Shown: positions 27,559 through 56,112 of the stretch, piece after piece | How positions within the stretch are numbered: the stretch's first letter is position 1 | How the letters are laid out: each line of letters begins with the position of its first letter | The notes under the pieces: generated by a model | What the model was told of the DNA's origin: nothing | What the model saw: the letters and a program-made list of their open reading frames with translations, nothing else | Databases searched by the model: none | Assembly: GCA_943736015.1 (NCBI GenBank) | Contig: OX031061.1 | Span: 15,199,290 to 15,263,289 of the forward strand | DNA from: Tridacna crocea | Lineage: Eukaryota > Mollusca > Bivalvia > Cardiida > Cardiidae | DNA: 64,000 nt | Reading direction: 5' to 3' | Program-made: the position numbers and the translations under genes

Positions 27559-28666
27559 TCTACTGGCTTTCAGCCAGCAGAGCTTATGTCATGGCGTGGT
27601 TTCCGTCGTCCGTCCGTCCGTCCGTTAGTCTTTTTCTTGTTTACGCGATAAAGTCTTCATTTCTGGTCAGATTTTCATGAAACTTACACAGTTTGTTTAT
27701 CTCATCGATAGCTTTAACTCTGTTGATTTTGAAAAAAAATCTGACAAAAAGCATGGGAAAAGTAGCCATTTCAAGTTTAAAATTTCCATTTCTTGTTTAC
27801 ACGATAAAGTCTGTATTTTTGGTCAGATTTCCACGAAACTTGCAGAGTTTGTTTATCTTATCAATAGCTTCAGCCCTATTGCTTTTGAAAAAAAAATCCA
27901 ACAAACAGTATGGGAAAAGAAACCATTTCAAGTTTATATAATTTCCATTTCTTGTTTACGAGATAAAGTCCGTATTTTTGGTCAGATTTCTGTGAAACTT
28001 ACACAGTTTGTTTATCTCGTCAATAGCTTTAACCCTATTGATTTTGAAAAGAATCAGACAAACAGTATGGGAAAAGTAGCCATTTCAAGTTTATGTAATT
28101 TCCATTTCTTGCTTACGAGATAAAGTCTGTATTTTTAATAAGATTTCTATGAAATTTGCAGAGTTTGTTTATCTTATCAATAGCTTCAACCCTATTGATG
28201 TTGAAAAAAATCCAACAAACAGTATGGGAAAAGTAGCCATTTCAAGTTGAAAAATTTTATTTCTTGTTTACGCGATAAAGTATTCATTTTTGGTCAGATT
28301 TCTGTGAAACTTACATAGTTTGTTTATCTCATCAATTGCTTTAACACTATAGATTTTGAAAAAAATCCGACAAACAGTATGGGAAAAGTAGCCCTTTCAA
28401 ATTGAACAATTTCATTGCCTGTTTACATGATAAAGTGTTTATTTGTGATCAGATTTTTATGAATTTTTCATCTTTTTTTATCCCTTTGATAGCTATTTAG
28501 CCCTTTTGAGTTTGAAAAAATTCAACAAACAGTAATGGAAAAGTAGCCATTTTGAGTTCAAAATGTCAACTTTTTTGTCTTTTGCGTAATGAATTCCTAT
28601 GTATGTTTTATTTAAAAGCAAACTCTCTGCCAGTAGAGCATATTCAGGCCCTTCAGGGCCTTCTAG
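27559..28666 (+). mobile_element. Helentron-like non-autonomous element with central tandem repeats
   Basis: Starts TCTACTGGCTTTCAGCCAGC and carries subterminal inverted repeats GCTCTACTGGC (27557) and GCCAGTAGAGC (28630). It ends with the hairpin GGCCCTTCAGGGCC followed by TTCTAG|T. Together these fit Helentron-associated elements: subterminal inverted repeats, central repeats and a 3' hairpin. A (CCGT)n microsatellite lies at 27607-27624. No Rep/helicase frame. Boundaries rest on terminal motifs only. Confidence 0.65.
27636..28570 (+). repeat. central array, six units of about 156 bp
   Basis: Units start CTTGTTTACGCGATAAAGT at 27636, 27792, 27951, 28108, 28263 and 28418 (spacing 156, 159, 157, 155, 155). 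Each carries GGTCAGATTTC, CAGTTTGTTTATCTC and AACAGTATGGGAAAAGTAGC. The frame spanning 27677-28123 is a repeat translation. The last unit is most diverged. Confidence 0.9.
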
Positions 28667-45679: not shown

Positions 45680-47620
45680 TGATACTTGCACACACAGCTT
45701 GTGCAACAGGATAACTGTACTTAAGAAGTACGTTACACGATAAATACACAAACATTGAATGATTGAACTAACATCATGTGCAATTAGATAACATCCCAAA
45801 TATAGTACATTACAGGATGGCTACACACGAATAACTCATTTCAATAATACAGTGCAAACATAGCACGCAAAGGGACAGCTGCACAAAATAAATGCAGTAT
45901 ATAATGATTGCACCAACATAGTGCGTTCATAGAATAACACTTCAAACGATGTAAGTTACAGGATAACTGCAAATACGAAAAGTGGCACAGGATAATGCAC
46001 GTACATAATGCAATAAATAATTACTTCACGTACACGTACAAATGGAATATAGGAGAAGTGCATACATACAGTGCGTTTAAGCATGAACGTAAAACATATT
46101 GCTTCACAACTTCAAAAAAAAAAATTCACGTATATCATAACTGCACGAAAGACAGTACATTACAGGATATCTGCACAAACGCAGTAAGTTAAATGTGCAT
46201 GGTAAATGTAGAAACACAGCATTTGTACGAGCGTAACTTTTCAAGAACAGTGCGTTACATGTTAATTGTATAAACACAGCACGTTACAGTATAACTACAC
46301 TTACGTTATAGGATAACTACACAAGAACCGTACATTACATGTAAACTGTATAAACACAGCACGTTACAGTATAACTACACTTACGTTATAGGATAACTAC
46401 ACAAGAACCGTACATTACATGTAAACTGTATAAACACAGCACGTTACAGTATAACTACACTTACGTTATAGGATAACTACACAAAAACGGTACGTTAAAT
46501 GATAACTTTATAAACACAGCACGTTACAGTATAACTACTCGTACACATTACGTTATAGAATAACTACACAAAAACGGTACGTTACATGATACCTGTGTAA
46601 ACACAGTACGTTACGATATAACTAAATATACACATTACGTTATAGAATAACTACACAAAAAAAGGTACGTTCCCTGATAACTGTGTAAACACAGTTCGTT
46701 ACAGTAAAACTAAACATACACATTACGTTACAGGATAACTACACAAATACGGTACGTTACCTGATAACTGTATAAACACAGAACTTTACGATATAACTAC
46801 ACATACACGTTACGTTATAGGATAACTACACAAAAACGGTACGTTACCTGATAACTGTATGAACACAGCACGTTACAGTATAACTGCACTTACACATTAC
46901 GTGATAGGATAACCACACAAAAACGGTACGTTACCTGATAACTGTATAAACACAGTACGTTACGATATATTCTAACATGACACGCGACTTTGGATCTATA
47001 AACACAGTGCAAGGAAAACGTGGTAAAATCTGCGACAATCCATGTAGAGTGACGTCATCCTATATCGAGTGACGTCATTCAATGAGTGAGTTATTCAATG
47101 GAACATAATCTTCATCCGCGTTTTTACTCTCAGTTTGAACTTGTTTTCCTTTCATTAAGAATTGGCCATGTTAGAATCGAAATAATCTTCTTTCTATCGT
47201 GGATTATTTATTGTGCCTTATAACTCACAACTGTGGTTTATTGAACGATATACCACGATAGAAAGATTATTTCTTAAACTACACATACACATTACGTTAA
47301 AGGATAACGTCATAAACACAGTACATTGTAGGATGACTGTAAAGAGTAGGCTATAGGAAAACTGCAAAATAGAGTGCATAATAGAATAACTGCCCAAACA
47401 CAGTACGTGTCAGAATAATTGCCCAAACTCAGTACGGTACAGAATACTGTAAATAGCCAGCACTATATGTGTCAAGAATGCATTAATACACTGCCCAGAA
47501 GAATTTCACACACAGAATGCAGTACAAGTTAACTGAAATTCGCAGCGCCTTAAAAGATAACTGCACATGCACAGCACGTAACTGTACACACACGAAACTT
47601 TTAGAACTATTCATGCTGTC
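45680..47620 (+). repeat. GGATAACTACAC satellite region
   Basis: The degenerate motif GGATAACTGCAC or GGATAACTACAC with AACACAG..CGTTACA recurs throughout. The best-ordered part is 46250-46980: TAAACACAGCACGTT at 46271, 46351, 46431 and 46511 (80-bp steps), then 86-88-bp steps (46598, 46685, 46771, 46858, 46946). Confidence 0.85.
47168..47272. repeat. inverted repeat interrupting the satellite
   Basis: AAATAATCTTCTTTCTATCG TGG at 47179 is inverted at 47251-47272 (CCACGATAGAAAGATTATTT), loop about 50 bp. Confidence 0.75.
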
Positions 47621-48442: not shown

Positions 48443-49505
48443 TTGGATGGATGGATGGATGGATGGATGGATGGATGGACGGACAGACGGACAGGTGGAT
48501 GGATGCCTAGGTTGATGGATGCATGGATTGGTAGGTGAATGTTTTGACTGGCGGATTGATGCATCGTTCGGTGGATAGATCGGTTGAACTCGAAGATCCG
48601 ATGATCGGTTGATAGATGAATGGACTTGTTCATGGTTGGATGGAATGGTTGATGGATGGATGGAATGGTTGATGGATTGATGGACTTGTTCATGGTTGGA
48701 TGGAATGGTTGATGGTTGGATGGAATGGTTGATGGATGGATGAAATGGTTGATGGATTGATGGACTTGTTCATGGTTGGATGGATGCCTAGGTTGATGGG
48801 TGGATGGAATGGTTGATGGATGGATGAAATGGTTGATGGATTGATGGACTTGTTCATGGTTGGATGGAATGGTTGATGGATGGATGAAATGATTGATGGA
48901 TTGATGGACTTGTTCATGGTTGGATGGAATGGTTGATGGATGGATGGAATGGTTGATGGGTGGATAAAATGGTTGATGGATGGATGGACTTGTTCATGGT
49001 TGGATGGAATGGTTGATGGGCGGATGGAGTGGTTGATGGATGGATGGACTTGTTCATGGTTGGATGGAATGGTTGATGGATGGATGAACTTGTTCATGGT
49101 TGGATGGAATGGTTAATGGATGGATGAAATGGTTGATGGATGAATGGAATGGTTGATGGTTGGATGGACTTGTTCATGGTTGGATGGAATGGTTAATGGA
49201 TGGATGGAATGGGTGATGGGTGGATGGAATGGTTGATAGCTGGATAGACTTGTTCATGGATGGATGGAATGGTTGATGGGTAGATGGAATGGTTGCTGGA
49301 TGGATGGATGGAATGGTTGATGGGTGGATGGAATGGTTAATGGGTGGATGGAATGGTTGATGGTTGGATGGAATGGTTGATGGAGGGATGGTATAGTTGA
49401 TGGATGGACTTGCTCATGGTTGGATGGAATGGTTGATGGGTGGATGGAATGGTTGATGGGTGGATGGAATGGTTGATGGGTGGATGGACTGGTTGATGGA
49501 TGAAA
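48443..49505 (+). repeat. GGAT microsatellite and minisatellite
   Basis: (ATGG)n at 48447-48478, then about 1 kb of GGATGGAATGGTTGAT units with interspersed GGACTTGTTCATGGTT. Minus-strand frames (HPSTIPSIHQPF-type) are repeat translations. Confidence 0.92.
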
Positions 49506-52531: not shown

Positions 52532-52712
52532 CAGGTCCGTCGTGGCTGAGTGCTAAGTATAGGACTCGTGACCTGGCGGCCACGAGTTCGGGCCTCATTG
52601 GATCCACTGGGTCATTCGTGGGGGTGCCCGTAGGCAAGACACTTCAGAGTCCAGCAAGGTACAAATAAAAGCTCAGAAACCCAGGAAAAAAATGAATGTG
52701 TGAACTGTCACC
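52532..52712 (+). mobile_element. second tRNA-like SINE family, copy 1
   Basis: CGTGGCTGAGTGCTAAG (A-box-like), CACGAGTTCGGGCCTC (B-box-like), then CACTGGGTCATTCGTGGG and AGGCAAGACACTTCAGAG. Different from the other SINE family in head and body. Confidence 0.7.
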
Positions 52713-52726
52713 GTGGTATAATTGAA

Positions 52727-52915
52727 ATGACGTTGGTCCTGTGTGACACAGTGCTAAAGTGTAGCACTTGTGACCTGGAGGTCACGGGCTGGAGCCTCAT
52801 TAGATCCGCTGGGTCATTCGTGGGAGTACCCTTAGGCAAGACACTTCAGAGCCCCAGCAAGGTACAAGTGAAACCCAGGCAAACATGAATATGTTACCGT
52901 GATATGACTGACATA
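52727..52915 (+). mobile_element. second tRNA-like SINE family, copy 2
   Basis: GACACAGTGCTAAAGTG, GGTCACGGGCTGGAGCC, GCTGGGTCATTCGTGGG and AGGCAAGACACTTCAGAG; same orientation as copy 1. Confidence 0.7.
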
Positions 52916-52994
52916 ATTTACTATGTAAATAGTTGAGTAGGAAATGAATAGGTGCTTTCCCTTTCCTAGAAATTTTTAAAAGTCCAGCGCTTTC

Positions 52995-53466
52995 AGGTGT
53001 CAAATCACCCAGAGAAGTACTTCCGGGTCGTATGGTGCTAAAGTAGTTCTTTGAAAAAAAATGAAACCTTTTTTTGATAGTGCATGCTTCATTGCATGAT
53101 TGCTTTTCTCACATTATTTCACCTGATGTTTTGAAAAAAGGGTATTTTGTGCTGAATGAGCTAAAATCCATCTTTCTTTTCAGGACTATTTCTTGTGTAG
53201 GGATGCTGGAAATTGTGAAGTAGATGTGGGTACCGGACCTGTGATGGTTAGGAAAAAGACATGGTACGCATGTTTGACCTAATTTTGTGAAAAATCCAAT
53301 CGGTCATGATGGATGTATTTGTTGGAAAATCAAGGGATTAGTGAAGTTTCTGAAACATTTGGAGCATATTATTCATGAACGAATGTCGTGGAACATGTGA
53401 CAACGTGTGGAATTTGCGGAATTTACATTGAATTATATAGGAGTCTATTTGAGTGATTTGACACCT
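52995..53466 (+). repeat. 472-bp direct repeat, left
   Basis: Bounded by a 14-bp inverted repeat (AGGTGTCAAATCAC / GTGATTTGACACCT). Includes an exon-like segment at 53184-53263 with flanking splice-like sites. Confidence 0.92.
53184..53263 (+). other. exon-like segment in the direct repeat
   Basis: Preceded by a pyrimidine-rich acceptor-like TTTCTTTTCAG and followed by GTACGC. The 80 nt are open and would read DYFLCRDAGNCEVDVGTGPV then MVRKKT, with cysteines at positions 5 and 11. The same segment is at 55368-55447. No family recognised; could be an exon of the nuclease gene or an intron-like coincidence. Confidence 0.4.
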
Positions 53467-53841
53467 AGAAGTGATTCTGGCAGAAATTTTTGATTGTTTA
53501 TTTCTCTGCGATTATTGGAGCTAAAGACTTGAAATTCGGAATACAAATTGCTTACACCATGGAAAACTTAATGAAATCATACTTTCAATGTTGGTGAGTC
53601 ATTTTTAAATTTAAATATTGAATTTAATTGAATTTTTTAAATATTCTGTAATTTGTGTCAGTCATAGACTGGTTCCAGTCTGGTTTTTCCTGTATATACT
53701 GTATCCCTGTCTTGAAAATGAGGAAAGTTGTCGTCTGCAATTTCCTAAAGTTGTTTATTGTGACTTTTGAAGTTGAAATTGAAATTTAGATGAATTTTAA
53801 GAAATTTAAAAATATTTAAAAATTGTTTAAAAAATGTCCAG

Positions 53842-54184
53842 ATGGAGAATTTCTTTGAATTGTGCCAAAAGGAACTTGAAAGTCATTCAAAACCCCATGG
53901 AAATGGACAGTGCATCATTTGGACGGGCTGCACAAACAAGGGCTATGGGCAGTTTAGATACAAAAGATCCAAGAGACCCTTATTTTGCCGGCAATAAGAC
54001 CAGAAGTGTGCACAGAATGGCCTTAATGGTCAAACCTAAGTATTTAGATGTCCCTCATGAACAACAAGCCAGCCATTTATGCAATAATAAACTGTGCATT
54101 AACACTGAACGCATTGTTTTTGAAGAAAATTTTACAAATAACTTGAGAAAGATATGTTTTTTGGCATGGAGGTCTTGGAGCTGA
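53842..54184 (+). pseudogene. His-Me finger (homing-type) endonuclease-like ORF, frameshifted
   Basis: The N-terminal part reads from ATG 53842 (MENFFELCQKELESH...; stop at 53995-53997) and contains CIIWTGCTNKGYGQF at residues 24-38, a W-T/G-Y-G motif typical of the start of this nuclease fold. The C-terminal part lies one base out of frame, in the frame that opens at ATG 53834. There it contains VHRMALM, then SHLCNNKLC (His at about 54074) and FTNNLRKIC. SHLC...C plus a downstream NN..C matches the zinc-binding loop and catalytic His of I-PpoI-like endonucleases. A net one-base shift is needed between about 53965 and 53995. Reaction, if active, would be DNA double-strand cleavage. Family call is by motif memory only. 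Confidence 0.65.
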
Positions 54185-54263
54185 CACTTTGCACAGCCAT
54201 TTCACTTAGCCTCATTTCAAAAATGTTCTCCATTATCAAAAGGTCATTTCGGTCCATTTTCAG

Positions 54264-54572
54264 GCACCAAATGCAGACTTAAGCCACCAACTCCCTTCAC
54301 GCACTCCAGAGCGTACAAGGGACTCTCCCGGACAATCACTACAATTTCCAGAATACGAAAGAATGGTGGCTGCCCTCACTGAAGGTAATTTCGGAATCAA
54401 TTTTACTATATCCCTATTTCCGAGTCGTGCCAGTTCTTCAAAAAATTGCACTGGAACGAGTGCGGATGTCTTTGCGGAAAGCAGCCAATCCTCTGGCATC
54501 TTTCGACTTGCGATGGTCCGGAAGAAATTCTGCACTAAATTTGCCTTCTTCTCTTGTCTTGATCCAAGATGA
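54264..54572 (+). other. open segment after an acceptor-like site, possible second exon
   Basis: TCCATTTTCAG precedes an open frame of 103 codons that starts APNADLSHQLPSRTPERTRD, is rich in Ser/Pro/Thr, and continues PEYERMVAALTEG. A donor-like GAAG|GTAATT lies at 54384/54385. It follows the nuclease frame by 80 bp and may belong to the same gene. No domain recognised. Confidence 0.35.
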
Positions 54573-55178
54573 TAAGGATTTTGCTGGTGCAAAACATTAA
54601 GGGGAAGATACAACTTGACAGTCTGGGTTTAATCTAGAAGAGCCAGCGGGTTCTTCTCTTTGCTAATATAACTTGTGATATTTGAGGCTCTGTACTGCAT
54701 CTCATGACAGTATTTTGCTGTGAACTGTAGTACATTGACTGTGGGTGGTCTTTCAAGTACAAACAAAGGTGGCTTTGGGGTTTTTTAACTCTATTTTTTT
54801 ATGACAAAGTCAGTTTTGACCCCCAAAATTCCACAAGAATTGTTACTTTTCTGACCTTTTTTGACCTTGATGGCTGCAATGATCTACAAAAAGCTGTAAA
54901 ATGGAAACTACAGACTGGCCAAAGCATGCTGCACTTTGTTTTGTCAAAATCTACCAACTACTTCCAGAGAATCTTTGATTCGAAGTATTGTTTTGAAACA
55001 TGTCTAATTGCAGCTGAAAGCGCAGGATTTTGTCGCTTAGGGGTAATGTTTTTGAAATGAGATTGTGTGCATCTGAACATAAAATGTATTGAAGTTGGTG
55101 CATTTTGATAATGCATTGAAGCCAATAATCAGTAAGAATGCCTTGTTTGGAGATTTTGACCAACTTGCAGTGTCATCT

Positions 55179-55650
55179 AGGTGTCAAATCACCCAGAGAA
55201 GTACTTCCGGGTCGTATGGTGCTAAAGTAGTTCTTTGAAAAAAAATGAAACCTTTTTTTGATAGTGCATGCTTCATTGCATGATTGCTTTTCTCACATTA
55301 TTTCACCTGATGTTTTGAAAAAAGGGTATTTTGTGCTGAATGAGCTAAAATCCATCTTTCTTTTCAGGACTATTTCTTGTGTAGGGATGCTGGAAATTGT
55401 GAAGTAGATGTGGGTACCGGACCTGTGATGGTTAGGAAAAAGACATGGTACGCATGTTTGACCTAATTTTGTGAAAAATCCAATCGGTCATGATGGATGT
55501 ATTTGTTGGAAAATCAAGGGATTAGTGAAGTTTCTGAAACATTTGGAGCATATTATTCATGAACGAATGTCGTGGAACATGTGACAACGTGTGGAATTTG
55601 CGGAATTTACATTGAATTATATAGGAGTCTATTTGAGTGATTTGACACCT
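55179..55650 (+). repeat. 472-bp direct repeat, right
   Basis: Same length as the left copy and identical as far as I can read it, offset 2184 bp. Followed by TTCACC and a (GTT)n run. Confidence 0.92.
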
Positions 55651-55658
55651 TTCACCTT

Positions 55659-55686: not shown

Positions 55687-55850
55687 TATTGTTGTTTATT
55701 TTGTATGATATTTTCATATTTCATCCAGTTTTCTTGTTCTTGCCATATTTTTCATAACATATTGTTATGGCCAAAAGCATGTTTTCTGCTGATTTGCCGA
55801 ATAAATGGATGAATTTGAAAGCAGGGTAGAACACCCTTCAAGCAATACAT

Positions 55851-56112
55851 GCCCGCCCAGGTGGCTCAGTGGTGAGCGTGTCACACTCATGACCTGGTGG
55901 TTGTGAGTTCGATACCCGGTTGAGGCGAACTTTCTTTCCGGCGTATTTTCGCCTCTCACCTCTGCTGAAGCATGTGAGAAAAGTAGTCGGTGGCTTTGGA
56001 AAAAAAGTAGTGTAAGTACCGGTGTGAGAAAGCCAGGAAACACATGTTCGTCACCGACCGCCATGATATGACCTTAGCTGTTAAAGTGGCGTTAAACCCC
56101 AATACAACCAAC
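55851..56112 (+). mobile_element. tRNA-derived SINE, full length
   Basis: GCCCGCCCAGGTGGCTCAGTG head, B box GAGTTCGATACCCGG, complete body and the tail AATACAACCAACC. The minus frame 55765-56064 is its translation. Confidence 0.9.

Follow-up and report, generated by a model that had tools for sequence, protein, structure and literature searches.

We identify the repeat-bounded element in the window (the whole 64,000-nucleotide stretch analysed, G000:C6:15199290-15263289 of Tridacna crocea, whose genome comprises 1.05 Gb in 31 contigs) with high confidence as a young non-autonomous KolobokP DNA transposon. It is a monomer of the form LTDR-INT-LTDR, in which two long terminal direct repeats (LTDRs) enclose an internal region (INT), and its transposase would be supplied in trans. 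KolobokP was described in 2022 (Kojima & Bao, Mob DNA 13:24, PMC9587614; statements on the published lineage refer to the portion of that paper available to us), and the element is a non-autonomous member of this lineage, not a new kind. A reading made from the letters alone (the sequence-only reading) had proposed a candidate new mobile unit. Mobility, and the plan of direct repeats with inverted ends around a nuclease domain, hold up, while the claim of a new kind gives way to the match with KolobokP, and the candidate is settled as part of a published lineage. The assignment was made by setting features against the published description of a lineage with 228 published families, almost all of which features agree, not by comparing consensus sequences. 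Since no transposase remnant was detected in the window INT, the case for descent from a transposase-bearing KolobokP draws on the element's architecture, its nuclease and the class of its LTDRs.

Structure and insertions of the window family

Direct comparison of positions 52995-53466 with 55179-55650 yielded 472 bp with zero mismatches at a start-to-start distance of 2184 bp, and the identity stops at both borders with zero extension on either side. The pair of direct repeats first noticed by eye is thus identical base for base. Both 472-bp copies are edged by AGGTGTCAAATCAC and its inverse. The 14-bp inverted ends reported earlier are present on each copy, but comparison of insertions shows that the outermost A/T is target or interior sequence and that the element's own end is 13 bp. 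The C10 insertion has the bases CGGTGTC...GACACCG at its borders, which puts the element end at GGTGTCAAATCAC. The whole element, GGTGTCAAATCAC...GTGATTTGACACC, measures 2654 bp. It consists of a left LTDR of 470 bp with the same two ends (52996..53465), an INT of 1714 bp (53466..55179, TAGAAG...TCTA) and a right LTDR of 470 bp (55180..55649) identical to the left one. Repeat search and the comparison of insertions place 13-bp terminal inverted repeats at both sides of each LTDR, at 52996..53008 (+ strand) and 53453..53465 (- strand) on the left copy and at 55180..55192 (+ strand) and 55637..55649 (- strand) on the right copy. Comparison of the flanks revealed a target-site duplication, TTTCA, at 52991..52995 and again at 55650..55654. 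Given that TTTCA flanks the 2654 bp as a whole, the element either arrived in the LTDR-INT-LTDR form or gained or lost units in place within one insertion, and the earlier suggestion that it originated as a recent 1.2-fold tandem duplication does not fit.

Nine ORFs of the window element were run through Pfam and PF05551 alone scored over cut-off; the first frame gave two further matches below it (PF08742 at 0.012 and PF15335 at 0.068). Two divergent transposases, those of the C6 and C1 families described below, were used to look for remnants of a transposase in the INT and gave no significant match (best E 0.59); the C18 transposase would suit this search better. A ribozyme or retrozyme reading of the element was also considered and is unsupported, its three Rfam matches all falling far under gathering scores.

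The surroundings of the insertion contain repeats of their own. To its left, two 98-nt direct copies (52555-52854; 85% identical, 202 bp apart) resemble a short interspersed repeat, and to its right a tRNA-like stretch, perhaps a SINE, is visible by eye (55850-56110); ARAGORN made zero tRNA calls within the window. Tandem arrays occupy 27633-28563 (157-bp unit), 46242-46963 (87-bp unit) and 48607-49502 (20-bp unit).

The repeat and the interior were each searched against the genome, with 40 of 96 candidates scored for the repeat and 40 of 63 for the interior, so that copy numbers are lower bounds. The window unit was also found on four other contigs, C2, C7, C10 and C14, at approximately 99-100% identity, which rules against a chance resemblance. 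The window insertion (C6) and the C10 insertion hold one INT and two LTDRs each, C2 holds four INTs and five LTDRs, C14 17 INTs and 17 LTDRs, and C7 28 INTs and 29 LTDRs, summing to 55 LTDRs and 51 INTs with an LTDR at both ends in 5/5 insertions. A genome-wide match to the exact pattern of 14-bp ends gave 59 places, four of which, among the matches listed, lie outside the five arrays. Solo LTDRs with target duplications were found at C3:2.93 Mb and C3:54.7 Mb (L040, L042), an older monomer with a target duplication at C3:6.12 Mb (L041), and a copy on C12 (L043) in which one LTDR adjoins 248 bp of INT and the other end is missing. An array of the window family with about 95% identity lies at C16:33.7 Mb and contains five nuclease matches; the reading of this array covered its two ends. 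The sequence-only reading would have been refuted by an absence of other copies, but the genome holds four further near-identical insertions (1, 4, 17 and 28 INTs), along with solo LTDRs, older copies and related families.

Target duplications of 4-5 bp flank all nine two-ended insertions of the window family examined, with the element taken as GG...CC: besides TTTCA in the window, these are TTAA (C2), GTCC (C10), ACAA (C14), TTAA (C7), CGAT (C16), AACA (the C3 monomer), and TTAA and TGCA (the two solo LTDRs). The C12 copy was left out of this count owing to its missing end. In the assembly, the structure is not peculiar to the window locus, as other insertions have their own flanks and target duplications. 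An ordinary 1.2-fold tandem duplication, or an assembly artefact, would readily produce two perfectly identical repeats such as those in the window; we consider it exceedingly improbable in view of nine family insertions with independent flanks and target duplications outside the repeats, and of SNPs that distinguish units within the C7 array.

Relatives with a transposase

A whole-genome search for PF05551 returned 80 matches, all over the cut-off, while the same domain gave zero matches in 14 control genomes. Some matches outside the window family stand single and others form spaced groups, at C6:22.66 Mb (four at 4207 bp), C1:16.02 Mb (two at 4201 bp), C18:12.46 Mb (two at 4377 bp) and C18:17.04 Mb (four at 4399-5446 bp). 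Units of the C6 group and the first C1 unit encode a 644- or 630-aa protein together with a nuclease on the opposite strand; in the second C1 unit the transposase frame is broken. The 644-aa protein matches PF20700 at 6e-34, and the 630-aa protein is 59% identical to it. Pfam names PF20700 a Mutator-like transposase, a label that counts against the KolobokP reading, in which the placement of these transposases within Kolobok rather than MuDR is putative. CCHC and CxxH signatures are legible by eye in both ORFs; these are given for KolobokP, the finger being common to other Kolobok lineages (PMC9587614). The LTDRs of these two transposase-coding relatives measure 666 and 656 bp. Among arrays of the ~660 class, 3-bp target duplications were seen in 2/2 examined, TTG and, more weakly as it lies within an A-run, AAA.

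The nearest autonomous-looking relative among those examined is the insertion at C18:12.46 Mb, of the ~450 class. Its 472-bp LTDR starts with GGTGTCGCACCAC (beginning GGTGTC) and resembles the window LTDR along 35 bp (83% identity, E 0.003), and a 675-aa open frame gives a transposase match at 22% identity. The insertion (C18:12456760-12466456, L051-L054) is built as LTDR-(INT)2-LTDR, with two INTs directly joined and no repeat between the units. An ATAT target duplication flanks the C18 insertion examined (n=1).

Fragments of transposase were also observed on C5, where 13 groups (G000:C5:42323651-42366499) are spaced 2.7-3.9 kb apart, mostly ~3.5 kb, and extend no further than residues 1-409 of the C6-type protein; PF05551 had no match on C5. 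Judged from this layout, the groups may be a further non-autonomous KolobokP array, one from which the nuclease has gone while some of the transposase remains. This is a hint that multimers can also exist where the nuclease gene is absent.

These relatives bear on whether the direct repeats could be the LTRs of an LTR retrotransposon or TRIM that has lost its internal polymerase. Such elements likewise end in direct repeats that are long and identical, show target duplications of 4-5 bp, and occur as solo repeats and as tandems that share a repeat. In the window family, however, the 13-bp inverted ends, with a GG start and a CC end, lie outside a TG...CA, and the outermost bases common to insertions are GG...CC instead of TG...CA. 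No purine tract was seen by eye at the INT end, and reverse transcriptase was found in 0/11 ORFs run through Pfam (nine of the window element and two of L044). Larger relatives built on the same plan code for a DDE-type transposase together with a His-Me nuclease. The sequence-only reading would have been refuted by a continuous LTR retrotransposon polyprotein in relatives; the C6 relative carries the PF20700 transposase plus nuclease, with no reverse transcriptase in the ORFs scanned. A retrotransposon origin is therefore extremely unlikely.

For the preferred reading, a non-autonomous KolobokP transposon, the following model can be proposed. An autonomous KolobokP would supply the DDE transposase in trans, and we infer that a family like the one at C18:12.46 Mb may serve the window family in this way. 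The transposase would recognise the 13-bp inverted repeats at the LTDR edges, and any left end could pair with any right end, so that solo LTDRs, monomers and entire multimers could all move, with each move creating a 4-5 bp target duplication. Solo LTDRs would then move by themselves rather than arise by recombination, and LTDR-LTDR recombination would generate multimers of the form (LTDR-INT)n-LTDR in place. The ends, the target duplications, the solo, monomer and multimer forms, the relatives with a transposase, the broken nuclease and the block duplication described below are the parts of the model that were observed.

The nuclease gene and the growth of arrays

The frame containing SHLCNNKLC (53831-54184) matches PF05551 (zf-His_Me_endon) at 1.4e-07 with 32.2 bits (cut-off 27), and the WTGC/GYG part of the nuclease sits in the neighbouring frame. 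This agrees with the earlier claim of an I-PpoI-type His-Me nuclease frame between the repeats, which had implied such a split. Alignment places a one-base frameshift between the GQCIIWTGC...GYG and SHLCNNKLC parts, and the C-terminal NGEC.GH part is missing. From the PF05551 match, the alignment and a frame survey, we annotate 53842..54184 (+ strand) as the probable relic of a His-Me finger (I-PpoI-type) nuclease gene. Searches of the PDB gave zero matches with the single window nuclease frame as query, I-PpoI at E 0.018 with one C1 nuclease, and I-PpoI weakly (best E 0.0028) with a profile built on five of the genome's nuclease sequences. Three short nuclease-like matches, at 34-63% identity, were found in viral contigs.

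The two nuclease halves are out of frame in the window unit (1/1), in 4/4 C2 units, in 17/17 C14 units and in 27/28 C7 units, the remaining C7 unit being unscored as its second motif is missing as searched. Taken together, the arrays of 4, 17 and 28 units, which are the three longest, have an out-of-frame nuclease in 48/49 units, with one unscored. The halves are in frame in C10 (1/1), the C3 monomer (1/1) and C16 (3/3 units scored, of 5), which is the one several-unit array that does hold in-frame copies. The in-frame copies too stop shortly past the first Cys of the C-terminal part and lack the NGEC.GH found in the C6 and C1 nucleases, and the position aligned to the nearby H of autonomous copies is R in the window, C10 and C3 and H in C16. 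The nuclease segment diverges at about the same rate as the remaining INT. For the three in-frame copies, pairwise dN/dS comes to 0.97, 0.45 and 2.7 (12-16 changes each), and constraint was not seen in this set of three copies with few changes. We read the nuclease of the window family as a relic and not a working gene; because its frame is broken, the window nuclease is unlikely to drive its element.

The sequence-only reading had proposed just such a drive, with the element moving by cut-and-recombine through its own nuclease in the manner of a homing-type selfish element. The PF05551 domain is indeed present, older copies of the window family have both halves in frame, and the KolobokP authors, too, put forward unequal crossover induced by the nuclease, as the origin of multimers (PMC9587614). 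Nonetheless, the frame is broken in the window and throughout the scored units of the longest arrays, the nuclease segment diverges like other INT sequence with the dN/dS values given above, and short target duplications point to transposition, not homing. We accordingly rate a homing-type element as very unlikely.

Within an array, the units have private SNPs in common, as in C14, where two such SNPs are present in 15/15 units compared. In the C7 array, whose 28 units span ~62 kb as assembled, 14 variants are each common to 2-6 units, and pairs are enriched at a distance of 10 units (9 pairs versus a mean of 1.3; P 0.006 for such a maximum at any lag, 20,000 permutations). More specifically, units 6 and 7 match units 16 and 17, units 8 and 18 have three variants in common, and unit 8 also has a patch in common with unit 11. 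The pattern is consistent with unequal exchange having duplicated a block of units, offset by 10 units, together with conversion. In the otherwise uniform C14 array, units 3, 4, 6, 8 and 11 have 4 additional bp where the LTDR meets the INT, scattered as if shuffled by exchange, and one INT-INT junction lacks the LTDR plus exactly 4 bp.

Given the 48/49 units out of frame and the C7 block duplication, it seems that multimers can do without a functional nuclease in cis and that unequal exchange accounts for at least part of their growth. A stronger claim, which we hold at slightly less than even, is that KolobokP multimers reach satellite-like arrays without a working nuclease in the array, via repeated unequal exchange between LTDRs that is possibly started by breaks; such breaks possibly come from the nuclease or transposase made by other families. 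Against this claim, trans action by the nuclease of another family is conceivable, the nuclease may still have been in frame when the arrays started, or the arrays might move as ready-made multimers. If it is true, a transposon insertion would be the seed of a satellite, and the published role of the nuclease as multimer driver would be unnecessary in cis. Out-of-frame arrays of up to 28 copies and the block duplication favour unequal exchange or a trans factor over a cis-acting nuclease, a constraint of modest novelty on models of multimer formation.

Comparison with known systems

KolobokP as described in PMC9587614 and the window family have in common the LTDR-INT-LTDR plan, multimers of the form (LTDR-INT)n-LTDR and solo LTDRs. 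Published LTDRs are ~450 or ~660 bp long, and those found here are 470 (window), 472 (C18), 666 and 656 bp (relatives). They carry short terminal inverted repeats of their own (11-18 bp in oyster) with 5'-RR...YY-3' ends, corresponding to 13 bp and GG...CC here. Target duplications of 3-5 bp with loose target choice are described, 3-4 or 4-5 bp depending on the family, and are 4-5 bp in the window family and 3, 3 and 4 bp in the relatives. INT-INT junctions are described with a loss of 3-4 bp, and such direct junctions occur here in C14, where 4 bp are lost, and in the C18 relative. The lineage encodes a His-Cys box nuclease of the I-PpoI type, represented here by PF05551 but apparently as a broken relic in the window copy. 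Autonomous members carry a transposase in the INT, where none was detected in the window and where relatives carry one; as PMC9587614 includes non-autonomous families in KolobokP, the window copy counts as non-autonomous. Arrays here reach 17 and 28 units, whereas the largest multiplicity named in the portion of that paper available to us is LTDR-(INT)4-LTDR, its tables giving no unit numbers. By size and form alone, the element resembles KolobokP-4N1_CorFlu, a non-autonomous family of Corbicula fluminea with a monomer of 2637 bp and LTDRs of 473 bp (2654 and 470 bp here) that also has solo LTDRs and multimers.

The SHLC.N..C.N signature is common to the window nuclease and I-PpoI, a His-Cys box homing endonuclease; unlike I-PpoI, the window nuclease lies outside any group I intron and, in the window family, is probably a relic. 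Bacterial composite transposons and IS26-type pseudo-composites, with which KolobokP is compared in PMC9587614, likewise have two short mobile units flanking a cargo. Each of these units moves alone or jointly and tandem growth shares a unit, and the window element would work alike. In contrast to the bacterial systems, the KolobokP transposase is encoded in the internal region and not in the flanking unit, and the host is a eukaryote.
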